This document shows, piece by piece, positions 3,617 through 9,744 of a DNA stretch of 22,755 bases (position 1 is its first letter; each line of letters begins with the position of its first letter). The stretch spans positions 616-23,370 of IMG/VR virus record IMGVR_UViG_3300030098_000739; one strand, given 5' to 3'. Origin of the DNA: a virus. The position numbers were made by a program, and so were the translations under genes. Below the pieces are notes generated by a model. The model did no database searches. It saw only the letters and a list, made by a program, of their open reading frames with translations, and had not been told where the DNA came from.

Positions 3617-6076
3617 TTAATCTCCTTCTAATTCGGTAATCTTTGCCTGTAAACTTTCAACTTTTGCGCTTAATTCTTGAACAGCTTTAACCAAAATTGG
3701 GTAAGTATTCATAGGCGTAGCTTCTAATTTTTCAGGATTTGAATAATCAACTAATCTTGTTCTATTTGTAGAACCGAAAGTCATTTCAACTTCATGTAGC
3801 TCTTGAGCTATGAAGCCTACTTCTTTTCGTCCATGCCAAGTTCCATCGCGCTTATTCCAAGTGAAATTAACAGGTCTTAACGCTTTGATAAAGTCCAAAC
3901 CTAAATCAGTGTCTTCTATAGCTGTTTTATCACGTTCATCGGACAAGGAAGTTATGGAGGTTTGCTGACACCGCAGTGTCGCCACACTAGAATTTCCTAA
4001 CGTAATTTCATTTGAAACGCTTGTAGAAGAAGGAACTGCGCCTGCACCAATACAAGTAAGATTACTGCCACTATGCGCGGTTGTGTTGTCCTGATTTCCT
4101 ACACAAGTAATATTATCTCCTGAATAGTTATAGGCCGAGCGATAACCAATAGCGACTTGATTGTCTCCGTTTTGATTATTGTACCCCGCAGTTTGCCCTA
4201 GATATACACAATAATTTGCACCTAAAAGATTATATCCTGCGGCAGTTCCAATGACTACGTTTCGTACACCTGTTGTGTACTGACCAGTCATACACTCAGT
4301 CCCAATGGTTACATTAAAATCCCCTGTTCCAGATTTGTAATAGGCTCTATACCCTATCCCAACATTATAATTTCCATTAGTTCCGCTATTAAGCTCTCCA
4401 GCCTGATAACCAATCATTACGCCGTAATCGCCATTGGACTCTGCCTGATATCCCACGCACACATTACCCGTAGCAGTTGTTAGCTGTAAATCTGCGCCAC
4501 GCCCTACTAAAGTATTATTATCACCCGTTGTTACGACTTCACCGGCGGAATAACCAATTGCTACGTTGCCCTCCATGCCGTTATTAGCAGAGGCACTGTA
4601 TAACGAATAACTACCTACGGCTGTGTTATAATTTCCTGCTTCTCTACCACTACGATATCCTAGTACAACATTATGAGAAGACGTCCCTACGTCACGAAGG
4701 GCTTCACCACCAATGCCTATGTTGCTGTCACCAGTTGTTGCGTTGTAAGCAGTTCTATACCCACCTAAATATACGTTTTGTGTGCCACCGCCGTTTGCGC
4801 TAGGACTTGAATCTGTTTGATACCCCACAGAAAAAGAATAGTCTCCTCCCTCGTATCCAGCTTGATATCCTATAGCTATGCGATGAAAGGCATTGTAGTT
4901 ATAACCTGCCTGCCGTCCTATACCTATGCTGTAATCTTGTGATGTTATTCCTCTGTTAGCGTCGTATCCTACTGAAACATTGTAATCACCCTGTACTATG
5001 TTTCTTCCAGCATACGATCCCATACCAGCGTTGCCTGTGCCAGTTGTGTTTTCATAACCACTATCATATCCCATGTAGTTATTGTGCGCCCCACTGGTCG
5101 TATCTCTAAGTGAACCTTTTCCTATACCGTGATTGTATGACCCAGTGCCTCCAGTTGATGTAGAATATTGTGGCCCTGTTTCTGAGCCTATGTAAACATT
5201 GTAACCCCCTGAAGTTACGTTTTGACCCGCTTTGTGTCCTACAGCAACATTATCAACACTAGTTGTTTTCATCAAAGAGTAGTTACCTACCGCTACATTA
5301 TGGTATCCAATAAGAGCCTCGGATAAACTAAAAGCACCTACTGCTACATTTCCTGTCGGAGTAACTTGTGTGGAAGCAAACTTATTTAAAGACATAGCAC
5401 CAATTGCAATATTAGGTGTAGCGCCTTGATAGTCTGCGCGTTGATTTTTTAATGCACCTGGGCCAATTCTAATATTGGCAAATTGAGAATCATTTCCACT
5501 AATAGCGGAGGACATTAAATTCACAAGACCGCCAAAACTCTCTTCCGGCAGTGTGACAAAAATATCCTTGGAACCAGCACCCCAGTTTACAAATCCATCT
5601 GTAAAAGTAAGAGCATCGTTATCTGCAAAAGTTCCTGGCTCTCCAGTGGAGTTGTTTGCTTGACTATCTGAACTTACAACTAAATTGTTTTGATCGGTGA
5701 CTGACGCAACAACCATAGGGTAATCATTTATACTACTACCTCTAATTCGCATTCCTGCAACTATTGTTCCGCTGTTGCCATCGACCACTAAATCGGTGCT
5801 ATTTTGCACCGCTCCATTTGCATTAGCCGTTGCTGTCGTAGTGTTACTGCTTTTTAAAACTAATTCTCTAGATAAAGTTGTTCCAGAAGCGGTGTATTTA
5901 CCAATCCCTATTTCAAAATCAGTGCCGTCAGTACAACAATAGTAACAATAATTACCATCACCAACTTCAGCAAAGCTATCAAAACCAGTAACCGCACCAG
6001 CCAAAGTATATGTGCCTGTGCCAGTTGTCGTGGTGGTTTCTTTTACCCTATCTGCAAGAACAAAATTTTGAGTCAC
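3617..6076 (-). CDS. tail fibre/spike with YadA-like beta-roll repeats and C-terminal S74 intramolecular chaperone
   Basis: The 819-residue product begins with a module ('[20 protein letters not shown]' onward) typical of phage fibre N-termini. Residues about 190-700 carry many short repeats of the type 'NVAVGxxSL', 'YNxxIGYxAG' and 'GNYNxxVG', as in trimeric YadA-like heads. The last 108 residues are an intramolecular chaperone of the endosialidase/S74 peptidase type. It opens with 'SDERDK' near residue 712, followed by 'LRPVNFTWN' and 'GFIAQEL', and ends in a coiled coil. In that family the Ser of the SD pair and the nearby Lys drive self-cleavage after trimer folding. The start is GTG at 6076, two bases after the preceding stop, with only a weak GAAG upstream. 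An odd 'YCYYCC' cluster lies near residues 43-48. Confidence 0.88.
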
Positions 6077-6515: not shown

Positions 6516-7163
6516 CTAAGTCCTTGGCCTATCAGGTAAGCCTCTGCGATATGCGTCAGAGTTCTCTCTGGCTTCCGCCAAGTCTTTCAAACGCTGAATT
6601 TCCTGCATAAATCTTTGCCCATACAGTTGCATCATATCAGCTTCGCCTTTCATGTAAGTATACGCCTCTACTAAAGAACCGTAAAGAAGTGCGTTTGGAG
6701 CATCGGTGCTTAACCATGTTGTGCCACTGTCAGAACCGGCAGTTAAGCTAACAGGGCGATAATAGTAGTGAAGTTCAACTGTATAATTTTGGTCAGGAGT
6801 TGGACTAACAATATAGTTGTCAACATCAAAAACAGCATAATACTTTGGTCTACCTGTTGCTCCAGAATCTATTGTGTATTGCTGCACAAAGTTAACATCT
6901 TTTTGAAGCAAAAATTCTTTGTTTAAAGCTGTTGTGATTTGAAAAGAAAAAGACGCTAAGTAATCAGTCGGCAGTGTTAGATAAGGATCGTCTACAGTAA
7001 GAGCGGATGTTGCGTTTTTACGAAACAACTCCAAATCCACCATAGTGAAAATACGATCTTCTGCACCACGAATAAATACAGGCAAATTCGTTACAAAAGA
7101 TGTCTCAGTGTTTTCACAAAAATCTTGTATAGCTTGTTTTAGTTCTGCGTATGTAAATGACAT
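6516..7163 (-). CDS. head-tail adaptor/connector-type protein, 215 aa
   Basis: The product starts with a helical segment ('TYAELKQAIQDFCENTETSF' onward) and has 'LPVFIRGAEDRIF' and 'LPTDYLASFSF'. A beta part at residues 104-137 ('GRPKYYAVFD', 'PTPDQNYTVELHYYYRP') is followed by a helical C-terminus rich in charge. This arrangement is typical of a widespread marine phage protein annotated as adaptor or tail tubular protein. The same G-x-P-x-YY ... P-x-P ... L-x-YYY layout occurs in the 221-residue protein at 8402-9067, which suggests a shared fold. The start at 7163 has AGGTAAC just upstream. A role in closing the head or joining the tail is inferred from family resemblance and neighbours. Confidence 0.7.
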   Translation of the reverse strand: MSFTYAELKQAIQDFCENTETSFVTNLPVFIRGAEDRIFTMVDLELFRKNATSALTVDDPYLTLPTDYLASFSFQITTALNKEFLLQKDVNFVQQYTIDSGATGRPKYYAVFDVDNYIVSPTPDQNYTVELHYYYRPVSLTAGSDSGTTWLSTDAPNALLYGSLVEAYTYMKGEADMMQLYGQRFMQEIQRLKDLAEARENSDAYRRGLPDRPRT

Positions 7164-7175
7164 GTTACCTGCTAA

Positions 7176-7829
7176 CTATACTATTGTAATGTTTCCAACC
7201 ATGCTGCTATGAACAGTACACTGATACACTAGCGAAGTGTCACTAGGCTCGTGCGGCACAATAAATTGAGTCAGCCCAGTGGTACTATTGTAATTGTCTG
7301 TAACCCCTGTTGTAAAAGCAGAGCCACCATCAGATGTTCGTATCTGCAAAGGATGGCTACTAACATAGGAAGTGTTGTCGATTAAATATGTATGACCTTT
7401 GTAAAAAGTAAAGTTAGGGTTGTTACCAGCAGTAGCACCTGGACCAGAAAAGGTGTAAGCAGAACCTGTGGCTGCTGTCGTTGTGTATGTGGTTGTTGGA
7501 CCGCTAACTTCATCATTAAGCCTTATCCAATTGCCACCGTGAGCAAAATACAAACCACCAGTTGCGTGAACATGAGCAACTGCGCCATGATAGGTTGATG
7601 CACTGGGTAGATCACTCAAAGCAGCATAATAAAAAACTATTTTGTTTGCTCCAGAACTAACATCTAAAAGACCGTTTGCATCTATAATGTCGGTCAACAC
7701 ATTAGAACTGTTTCCTAACGCGGCATAGATTTCATCAAAATTATCGTTAATTTTATCTGCACCTACACGCAGGCTATCACCTGTGCCATCATTAGCGGAT
7801 GTTCCAATTCCTACGGTTTGCTTTGCCAT
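7176..7829 (-). CDS. virion-type protein with cupredoxin-like C-terminal domain, 217 aa
   Basis: The N-terminal part (residues 8-38, 'GTSANDGTGDSLRVGADKIN' then 'DNFDEIYAALG') is a module common in phage virion proteins. Residues about 65-105 form a second small segment ('TYHGAVAHVHATGGLYFAHG'). Residues about 110-217 look like a cupredoxin beta-sandwich: 'NFTFYKGHTYLID', His159 in 'SSHPLQI', and the end 'LVYQCTVHSSMVGNITIV' with Cys204, His207 and Met210. The His ... Cys-x2-His-x2-Met set is that of a type-1 copper site, with the C-x2-H-x2-M spacing known from amicyanin. Copper binding is inference. The gene sits between two virion-protein genes and starts at 7829 directly after the previous TAA, with GAGG upstream. 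Confidence 0.7.
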   Translation of the reverse strand: MAKQTVGIGTSANDGTGDSLRVGADKINDNFDEIYAALGNSSNVLTDIIDANGLLDVSSGANKIVFYYAALSDLPSASTYHGAVAHVHATGGLYFAHGGNWIRLNDEVSGPTTTYTTTAATGSAYTFSGPGATAGNNPNFTFYKGHTYLIDNTSYVSSHPLQIRTSDGGSAFTTGVTDNYNSTTGLTQFIVPHEPSDTSLVYQCTVHSSMVGNITIV

Positions 7830-8402
7830 TTAAGCCTCGTCATATGTACTGCTTGTGGAATCAAGTGTAACACTTGTTGCATCAAAGGTCGATGCTGTTG
7901 TCACTGTTGCCGTTCCCGCTCCAACGGTCGCATGGTCACCACCGCCTCGTGCACCACCGGCTGTCGCTCCACTGCCGGTAATCGCAACAGTATACGAATT
8001 ATCATCGACAACCGTGATTGTGTAGCCTGTAGCTTTTTCAAGATTAGTTTTTGTAAAACCATCAAATCCCTCCACTTTACGAAAAACAACAGCATCAGAT
8101 GTACTGCGACCATGAGAAGGCTCAAATACTGTAACTACACTAGAGCCTGAAGTTCCAGATTGAAACGGATTCCTGATCAAAAGTCTTTGAACAGGATCCT
8201 CAGTCGTAGTGTCTGGCCTAGGATCGCGTAACGCTTGTGGATCAACAACCTTTCTTCTAGGCTCTAATTGTGGGTGTTTTTCTTCATATTCATCTGAACC
8301 AACTTTAAAGCCGTTCCATTCGGTTTTCATGTCTCGTAAACGATAACGAAAACCAGAACGATCTGATATGCCATATGCATTTTTACCAGAGGCAAAAGCC
8401 AT
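7830..8402 (-). CDS. conserved virion structural protein, 190 aa
   Basis: The N-terminal third is polar and contains 'FASGKNAYGISDRSG', 'EWNGFKVGSDEYE' and 'HPQLEPRRKVVDPQALRDPRP'. This pattern resembles a conserved protein of uncultured marine phages found next to connector genes. The middle, with 'TVFEPSHGRSTSDAVVFRKV' and 'GYTITVVDDNSYTVAI', looks like a compact beta domain, and a Gly-rich stretch near residue 150 precedes a Thr/Ser-rich end. The start at 8402 overlaps the upstream stop (TAATG) and has GAGGGTG just before it. No enzyme motif is seen. A neck or tail component is inferred from position between two connector-type genes. Confidence 0.68.
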   Translation of the reverse strand: MAFASGKNAYGISDRSGFRYRLRDMKTEWNGFKVGSDEYEEKHPQLEPRRKVVDPQALRDPRPDTTTEDPVQRLLIRNPFQSGTSGSSVVTVFEPSHGRSTSDAVVFRKVEGFDGFTKTNLEKATGYTITVVDDNSYTVAITGSGATAGGARGGGDHATVGAGTATVTTASTFDATSVTLDSTSSTYDEA

Positions 8403-9067
8403 TACACCCTCAAATATTGAATATCAGGCTGTAGTTTAAGAGACACCCTATCTTCATCCTCATCAGCGGCTCGTTGAAACTCTTCTTCATAAACAGTTTT
8501 TAACAACTGAACCAGTTGAGGATTCTTTTTCAATGCAATGTAGTATGATAATCCAGCAACCGCGCAAGGCAGAAAACGAAAAGGAAGATCTACATCGTTA
8601 GTAAGCGTATCGGCATCCTGTATTCTTTGAACATAGTAATACACTAACTGATCAGTGCTGTTTTCTGGTGTAGGCCACAAAGTTATTTGAGGGGTCGTTT
8701 GTCTGTTAAAATAATATTGACTAGGACGCGCTTGTGTTGCTTTGTCTGGAACAGACAGATAATCTCCTCGACTAATTTTCATAATATTAAAATCAGTGCT
8801 ACTTCTTCTAACGACCACCTCAAGTAAATCAACAACATCCGTTGTTAATGTCTCTGTAGCTTGGCCTTTTGTTAAGGTTATTGTGTTCTGTTGAACAGTC
8901 CAAAGATTAACGCCTCTGTTTGCCCAGTCAGCAAACATGAGATTCATAGAACGGCGTGCAGTACGCGCATCGTAACCAGTGCGAAGTTCTAACCCACACC
9001 TTTCATATGCCTCTTCTATAATGTCTGAAACATCGAGAGCGAAGTCTCTTGAGTTTGAAGTAGCCAT
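8402..9067 (-). CDS. head-tail connector (P22 gp4/T7 gp11-like), 221 aa
   Basis: The sequence has 'DVSDIIEEAYERCGLELRTG', 'ARRSMNLMFADWANRGVNLW', a central beta part, and 'ARPSQYYFNRQ', 'ITLWPTPENS', 'LVYYYVQRIQDAD', 'DLPFRFLPCAVAGLSYYIA'. These are the marks of a common phage connector or packaged-DNA stabilisation family that binds below the portal and forms the neck of short-tailed phages. I chose the ATG at 9067 rather than the GTG one codon earlier, because the ATG overlaps the upstream stop as TGATG and has GAGGAAG at a good distance. It may be a distant relative of the 215-residue adaptor at 6516-7163. The family assignment rests on motif memory, not on a search. Confidence 0.75.
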   Translation of the reverse strand: MATSNSRDFALDVSDIIEEAYERCGLELRTGYDARTARRSMNLMFADWANRGVNLWTVQQNTITLTKGQATETLTTDVVDLLEVVVRRSSTDFNIMKISRGDYLSVPDKATQARPSQYYFNRQTTPQITLWPTPENSTDQLVYYYVQRIQDADTLTNDVDLPFRFLPCAVAGLSYYIALKKNPQLVQLLKTVYEEEFQRAADEDEDRVSLKLQPDIQYLRV

Positions 9068-9744
9068 CACTCTTCCTCATTGTAAAGGTTATCAAATATC
9101 CTATTCACATCTAGTGTATAGTCTAAATCACTTTTTGAATAGTGTACATGTTGAGAAGGCTTAAAGTGTGGCGCACCTTCGCCTGTCTCAAACCAAGCAG
9201 GGTGTGTAACCCTTACACGATTATTGGGCAAGGCAACAATGTTTCCTGTCCATTCACCAGCATCAAGAAGTTGCAAAACATGACTTTGCTTATGTTGCGC
9301 TGGGTCATCTGCTATTTCGGACTCGGAGTAATCTACTGTAAACAGGTACTTTGCAGGAAAGAACTCACTGTCTATTTTAGCCAACCAAGGGCAGGGCGTA
9401 GCTCGGTCTATCACATAAACAGCGTGATTATGCGATGAACAATCCCAAGGTTGAGCATCATATGTGTTCATAGGTTCAGGCCATTCCTCTAAAGGTATAT
9501 CAGCAACTAGAGCGGTTATGGGCATCCTAGCCCACATTGCACCTCCATGTACCGTATCTTCCTCTTCACCTTCTGCTTCACTTCCAGTAAATATAACTTG
9601 GAAACTCAGACATCTGTTAGGCATGGACGTTACGCCAACGACCATCGCGTGCAAAAACTCACCATGATAGTCCTCATGGTTATGAGTATACTCGCGCCGC
9701 ACCCATGCCTTAAAGTAGGGAACGTTGCTATATAAATATGGCAT
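9067..9744 (-). CDS. conserved marine phage protein of unknown function, 225 aa
   Basis: The start 'MPYLYSNVPYFKAWVRREY' and later 'GEFLHAMVVGVTSMPNRCL', 'GAMWARMPITALVAD', 'QPWDCSSHN', 'KYLFTVDYS', 'HKQSHVLQLLDAGEWTGN' and 'LPNNRVRVTHPAWF' match a protein I recognise from many uncultured marine phage genomes, where its function is not known. It is a soluble mixed alpha/beta protein rich in Trp, His and aromatic residues, with no signal peptide. It overlaps both neighbours (TAATG with the 73-residue gene's stop region, TGATG into the connector gene). An assembly or minor virion role is likely from its location; nothing catalytic can be seen. Confidence 0.7.
   Translation of the reverse strand: MPYLYSNVPYFKAWVRREYTHNHEDYHGEFLHAMVVGVTSMPNRCLSFQVIFTGSEAEGEEEDTVHGGAMWARMPITALVADIPLEEWPEPMNTYDAQPWDCSSHNHAVYVIDRATPCPWLAKIDSEFFPAKYLFTVDYSESEIADDPAQHKQSHVLQLLDAGEWTGNIVALPNNRVRVTHPAWFETGEGAPHFKPSQHVHYSKSDLDYTLDVNRIFDNLYNEEE

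Follow-up and report, generated by a model that had tools for sequence, protein, structure and literature searches.

A predicted cupredoxin domain with a conserved type-1 copper ligand set at the C-terminus of a marine phage virion protein

Locus and gene organization

The window, meaning the whole stretch of 22,755 nucleotides that was analyzed, corresponds to positions 616-23370 of a 25,622-base IMG/VR virus record. Its source is taken to be a pelagiphage-like short-tailed phage, because its terminase (55-63% identity) and capsid (65-71% identity) are related to those of pelagiphages HTVC027P and HTVC023P, seawater phage 023Pt_psg01 and phage DSL-LC04, and because two genes near the one described here encode SU10-type adaptors. 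That gene is open reading frame P0001 (Table 1). Its bounds in the preliminary description, 7176-7829, were borne out; it is read from 7829 to 7176, and the corresponding plus-strand frame is interrupted by many stops.

The N-terminal module had been described as a common virion-protein head and was identified as such by a match of Pfam T4_gp9_10_N (PF07880) to residues 3-61 (E 1.1e-8, above cut-off); T4 gp10 was matched to the same head in a PDB search (E 1.2e-6). The tail fiber family PHROG 9729 matches residues 67-129, and the end of PHROG 677 ('baseplate wedge tail fiber protein connector') aligns with residues 101-217 at E 7.5e-47. PHROG 677 and the window protein share two matching stretches, the best of them covering positions 297-409 of 412. 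The middle of PHROG 677 is missing in the window protein, which is therefore a shorter relative. With its gp9/10-type head and C-terminal domain the protein belongs among the gp9-type connectors of PHROG 677, although it is half their length, comes from a putative pelagiphage-like short-tailed phage and lies beside adaptor genes. PHROG 677 is without copper annotation in PHROG.

Table 1. Features of the P0001 locus, in coordinates of the window
Feature	Position	Strand	Basis or remark
ORF P0001, 217 aa: head, middle segment and C-terminal predicted cupredoxin domain	7176..7829	minus	
Residues 1-61, T4 gp9/10-like N-terminal virion head	7647..7829	minus	PF07880
Residues 62-108, middle segment common to phage tail fibres	7506..7646	minus	PHROG 9729
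Residues 110-217, predicted cupredoxin domain	7179..7502	minus	AlphaFold2, fold and profile matches
His159 codon, first predicted copper ligand	7353..7355	minus	CAT and CAC both used in relatives
Cys204 codon, predicted copper ligand	7218..7220	minus	Translation, conservation
His207 codon, predicted copper ligand	7209..7211	minus	Translation, conservation
Met210 codon, predicted axial ligand	7200..7202	minus	Translation, conservation
Upstream neighbour, PHROG 28581 protein	7830..8402	minus	
SU10-type adaptor protein	8402..9070	minus	PF24175, E 7e-15
Downstream neighbour, second SU10-type adaptor protein	6516..7163	minus	PF24175, E 1e-27

Among near relatives drawn from the best 80 loci, the PHROG 28581 neighbour adjoins the gene in 68 of the 71 with room upstream, and the downstream adaptor adjoins it in 51 of the 67 with room downstream. 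In HTVC023P and HTVC027P the two neighbour genes are directly adjacent and the cupredoxin gene is absent. Searches of whole records located the domain in one of four relatives searched, 023Pt_psg01, where the counterpart of the adaptor at 8402..9070 has a cupredoxin domain fused at the portal-adaptor N-terminus. The cupredoxin-type domain of this portal adaptor (L429:2694-3791, MW574966.1) has HQIAF in place of HPFxI and keeps CTAHSGM.

Two other genes of the window were noted. The protein encoded at 9067-9744 (minus strand) matches PHROG 3704 'ferredoxin' (E 1.1e-26) and no Pfam family, and its HTVC023P relative is annotated PurM; both names look doubtful. The gene at 3617-6076 (minus strand) encodes a tail-spike-like protein of 819 aa that has many repeats of the AVG/AIG type and ends in an S74 chaperone.

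Copper ligand set and domain structure

A complete type-1 copper ligand set had been proposed from His159 in 'SSHPLQI' and from the C-terminal end YQCTVHSSMVGNITIV, which holds Cys204, His207 and Met210. All four residues were read in the translation, where the C-x2-H-x2-M spacing and the His-to-Cys distance of 45 are both correct and the cupredoxin pattern His...Cys-x2-His-xn-Met appears in the right order and spacing.

AlphaFold2 modelled the whole protein from 71 aligned rows with a mean pLDDT of 71.7; values in the C-terminal domain were mostly 76-94. A fold search with this model placed cupredoxins among the leading PDB matches with TM-scores that were low because the N-terminus was poorly predicted, and the domain was then modelled alone (residues 110-217; 56 rows; mean pLDDT 91.3, pTM 0.84). 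The domain is predicted to form a Greek-key beta-sandwich of the cupredoxin superfamily. In domain numbering, the Cys-His-Met loop lies between strands 90-95 and 102-107, and strand 52-55 begins shortly after His50 (= His159); Cys204, His207 and Met210 occupy the end of the last-but-one strand and the loop that follows it. The best Foldseek rows in the PDB were rusticyanin, pseudoazurin, plastocyanin, AcoP and laccases (E about 1e-3 to 1e-2, TM about 0.5). The VIA comparison gave Z 10.7 to 2dv6_A (2.2 Å over 94 residues, 17% identity) and Z 9.2 to rusticyanin 2cal (2.5 Å over 93 residues); only its top rows carry weight, because by VIA's own note a Z of 7-8 may reflect a common arrangement. 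Among predicted viral structures the best rows were cyanophage tail-fibre connectors and fibres (TM up to 0.87). Structure prediction and comparison with cupredoxins, the check first suggested for this protein, thus yielded a predicted cupredoxin fold in which ligand placement agrees by topology. Profile alignments shift by two residues at His159, pairing its Pro with the Pro of known cupredoxins, and because of this slip the register of His159 is assigned from topology and conservation.

The best structural match is the N-terminal cupredoxin domain of three-domain copper nitrite reductases (2dv6, 6tfo); that domain, however, is part of an enzyme, and the sequence searches showed no kinship to it.

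Ligand retention and sequence kinship

Free loss of the ligands in homologues had been named as the observation that would speak against a copper site, and the relatives retain them. All four are present in 80 of 80 near relatives (best 80 loci, 88-98% identical) and in 55/55 distinct domains from these loci. With the Cys loop (pattern YQCTxHx[AGS]M) or an HPF pattern as seed, scans found the set in 166/168 and 82/83 distinct full-span domains, respectively, among the matches listed; since each was selected by its own pattern, these scans test only the remaining ligands. A further scan used a first-strand motif that contains no ligand: its 80 loci left 49 distinct domains after removal of 31 duplicates, and 49/49 carried all four, in a sample that leans to the seed's kin because it holds the best 80 of 303 relatives. 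Looser relatives are under-sampled throughout, as every scan comprised the best 80 matches. Rows with a gap at a ligand column were set aside (four in the Cys-loop set, five in the HPF set); these comprised ends of loci, more distant copies matched in part, and one ligand-less copy in L116 (309-410). The counts exclude S-CAM1 (L091) along with other reference rows.

The rest of the domain drops to 33-62% identity while the ligands stay. They are among the 12 invariant columns of the 56-row domain alignment, whose rows came from scans each part-seeded by the ligand set. Across 67 distinct genes of near relatives (from the best 80 loci), synonymous variation is seen at both His codons and at the Cys codon. 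Compared with the window, the domain has a dN/dS of about 0.04, similar to the rest of the protein, a value that is rough because dS near 2 is saturated.

Departures from the ligand set were also seen. Two longer relatives (L207:872-2806 and L281:3271-5139) have C-x2-H-x2-Q instead of C-x2-H-x2-M, as if with an axial Gln; a Met-to-Gln swap of this kind occurs in copper proteins, e.g. stellacyanin. In L116:3215-5302, tandem domain copies without all four ligands stand beside a copy that keeps them. S-CAM1 has a truncated copy in which HPFEI is present and the Cys loop is missing, preceded by a YQCTAHPNM end.

A profile of 71 rows of relatives, searched against the PDB at E up to 10, matched 30 distinct sequences. 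Twenty-eight were blue copper proteins (plastocyanins, amicyanins, azurin, pseudoazurins, auracyanin or copper nitrite reductases) and two were unrelated; the top match, at E 5e-4, was 2vmj, a nitrite reductase engineered with an amicyanin loop. A 12-row profile gave a similar picture. At a lax limit of E 10, the NCBIfam matches among the 71 rows were to amicyanin (40), halocyanin (16) and plastocyanin (11), and PF00127 matched 32 of the 71; the best E values in these comparisons were 1e-5 to 1e-4. The likeness to amicyanin noted at the outset is borne out in the loop spacing and is also seen in the NCBIfam matches of the relatives (40/71).

The window protein itself matched no copper family in Pfam and gave no NCBIfam match of any kind at E up to 10. 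It falls outside amicyanin TIGR02657, for which the best E among relatives is 1.1e-5, and had no match to PF00127 at the gathering score. As modelled, it is cupredoxin-like yet not filed as an amicyanin. The tail spike of P-SSM2 passes the curated PF00127 cut-off (23.3 vs 21.2 bits), so that databases already hint at a cupredoxin in some members. With TIGR02657 and PF00127 the domain shares the predicted cupredoxin fold and the Y-x-C-T-x-H-x2-M loop with amicyanin spacing. Those proteins are free periplasmic carriers, whereas the copper site predicted here lies in a domain of a virion protein, and the first ligand stands here in HPF/HPL, in contrast to the Asn found in the place of Pro in aligned known members.

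Distribution in phages and bacteria

A search with the domain alone matched 328 of 50,697 phage records, named as Synechococcus (248), Cyanophage (50), Prochlorococcus (25), Marine (4) and uncultured (1). The domain ends no more than 5 residues from the C-terminus in 40/55 complete ORFs. PHROG 677 matched every one of the 54 ORFs scanned for families (one 1276-aa ORF was left out), many of which also match other tail-fibre or baseplate families; a gp9/10 head was present in 26, collagen repeats in 3 and an S74 chaperone in 2. The module mostly caps the C-terminus of tail-fibre connectors and fibres in marine cyanophages and pelagiphage-like phages. Since connectors, fibres and a portal adaptor all carry it, the domain is, as judged from sequence comparison, a mobile add-on module that moves between virion proteins. 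The analysis suggests that many ocean phages carry predicted copper sites on their tails. In Prochlorococcus phage MED4-213 a 1610-aa protein (L089:422-5252) has two cupredoxin-type domains flanking a putative subtilisin-type protease.

Relatives were also found in bacteria. Among 51 pattern matches in genome contigs one was a relative, a 133-aa Bacteroidetes lipoprotein, and 15 of 296 Bacteroidota genomes contained relatives; a plasmid search for relatives gave no match. Thirteen Bacteroidota domains from 12 loci carry H...C-x2-H-x2-M (11) or C-x2-H-x3-M (2), so that the HPF...C-x2-H-x2(3)-M domain of the phage proteins recurs in 13/13. Unlike the phage proteins, these are cellular and have a lipoprotein-like signal and other partner domains. 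Several start with such a signal; two that were scanned contain CHRD repeats, and other relatives have what look like fasciclin-like repeats. In the lipoprotein-like proteins L336-L346, CHRD or fasciclin-like repeats are followed by a domain of the cupredoxin family at the end. PF00127 matched 0 of the 3 Bacteroidota relatives examined. The 13 Bacteroidota rows did not form one group in a poorly resolved tree of 90 domains (116 columns).

Function and alternative explanations

Judged from the modelled fold and the retained ligands, the C-terminal domain is very likely a genuine cupredoxin whose type-1 copper site is functional. The gp9/10-type head would display this domain on the virion, in the tail or head-to-tail region. 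We infer that the site binds copper and is loaded outside the cytoplasm: the protein would be made copper-free in the cytoplasm, and copper would be taken up after lysis or in the host envelope. The exported compartment is where cupredoxins usually acquire copper, and an extracytoplasmic copper domain would fit the exported look of the Bacteroidota relatives, several of which start with lipoprotein-like signals. Once filled, the site could stiffen a solvent-exposed tail domain and could help contact with the host envelope during adsorption. The chain as a whole, i.e. a true cupredoxin with an intact type-1 set, displayed on the virion, loaded with copper outside the cytoplasm and having a stiffening or adsorption role in a wide sense, is reasonably likely to hold. 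That adsorption or stability is the main role of the copper site is proposed tentatively, as possible but somewhat doubtful.

It is improbable that the cupredoxin fold is a mere spacer or adhesive beta-sandwich, its four residues kept for folding and free of metal in the virion. The ligand-less tandem copies in L116 and the truncated copy in S-CAM1 agree with such a use and indicate that the fold is usable without the site; the module is also positioned like other add-on surface domains (cf. the Ig-like domains on other virions). Against this, the ligand-blind scan (best 80 of 303 relatives) shows four polar or sulfur residues, correctly ordered and spaced, unchanged in 49/49 distinct domains, and in the rare cases of a swap Met is replaced by Gln, as known in copper proteins. 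The existence of ligand-less copies and of close relatives without the gene means that the cupredoxin site is not essential to the pelagiphage-like type.

Another metal at the site, most likely zinc picked up in assembly, or else Fe or Ni, would make it a structural clamp. Virions are assembled in a cytoplasm with little free copper and zinc can sit in Cys-His-His sites, but the conserved Met (82/83 and 49/49 among the matches listed) fits copper and not zinc, the profiles are kin to copper carriers and the Bacteroidota relatives look exported; we consider this explanation very improbable. The same low probability is given to a redox switch or electron carrier, in which a redox change at the host surface, or the quenching of light-made oxidants, would alter or protect the tail. 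Known type-1 sites are one-electron redox centres, and all 328 domain-carrying records, bar one 'uncultured', are from Synechococcus or Prochlorococcus phages or marine sources. The window protein, however, is without an enzyme domain or a partner protein, and the module occurs in unrelated tail proteins, so that a self-contained add-on fits better than a wired redox device. A chance motif is rejected by the ligand conservation and by the finding that H-x(30-60)-C-x2-H-x2-M arises in 28 of 200,000 shuffles of the protein's residues (1 Cys, 8 His and 2 Met).

The preferred reading, a virion-displayed cupredoxin domain with a probable type-1 copper site, can be extended to marine tailed phages at large. 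These would carry interchangeable tail copper modules shared with exported bacterial cupredoxins; the filled site would be needed for infection, either to touch surface proteins that handle copper or to preserve the tail in sunlit water; copper would limit infectivity, and phages would form a moving marine pool of copper. This extension is unlikely as it stands.

If the preferred reading is true, abundant marine phages would carry a conserved type-1 site on their tails that links their adsorption or stability to copper chemistry, and copper would join the debate on phages as trace-metal ligands. The C-terminal region of PHROG 677, whose annotation so far reflects only where it sits in the virion, gains an identity as a predicted cupredoxin. 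No description of a cupredoxin as a phage virion part was found in the open-licence literature within the terms used, and the available portions of PMC9602691, PMC9605863 and PMC10665884 contain nothing on a virion cupredoxin. Well-described metals in phage tails are few, and iron in T4 fibres is the case discussed in the available text of PMC11705849, where iron-binding HxH tail fibres of T4 and marine phages are proposed to aid adsorption (Ferrojan/Trojan horse). As presented there, iron sits on HxH pairs of trimeric fibres, whereas the site predicted here is a Cys-His-His-Met set in a folded cupredoxin. Cyanophages also have a cupredoxin gene in PetE, the plastocyanin that the available part of PMC3037559 places among photosynthesis genes for the infected cell; unlike PetE, the present domain belongs to tail proteins. 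The same portion of that source reports 41 proteins detected for S-SM1. The gp9 of S-SM1 carries the cupredoxin domain.
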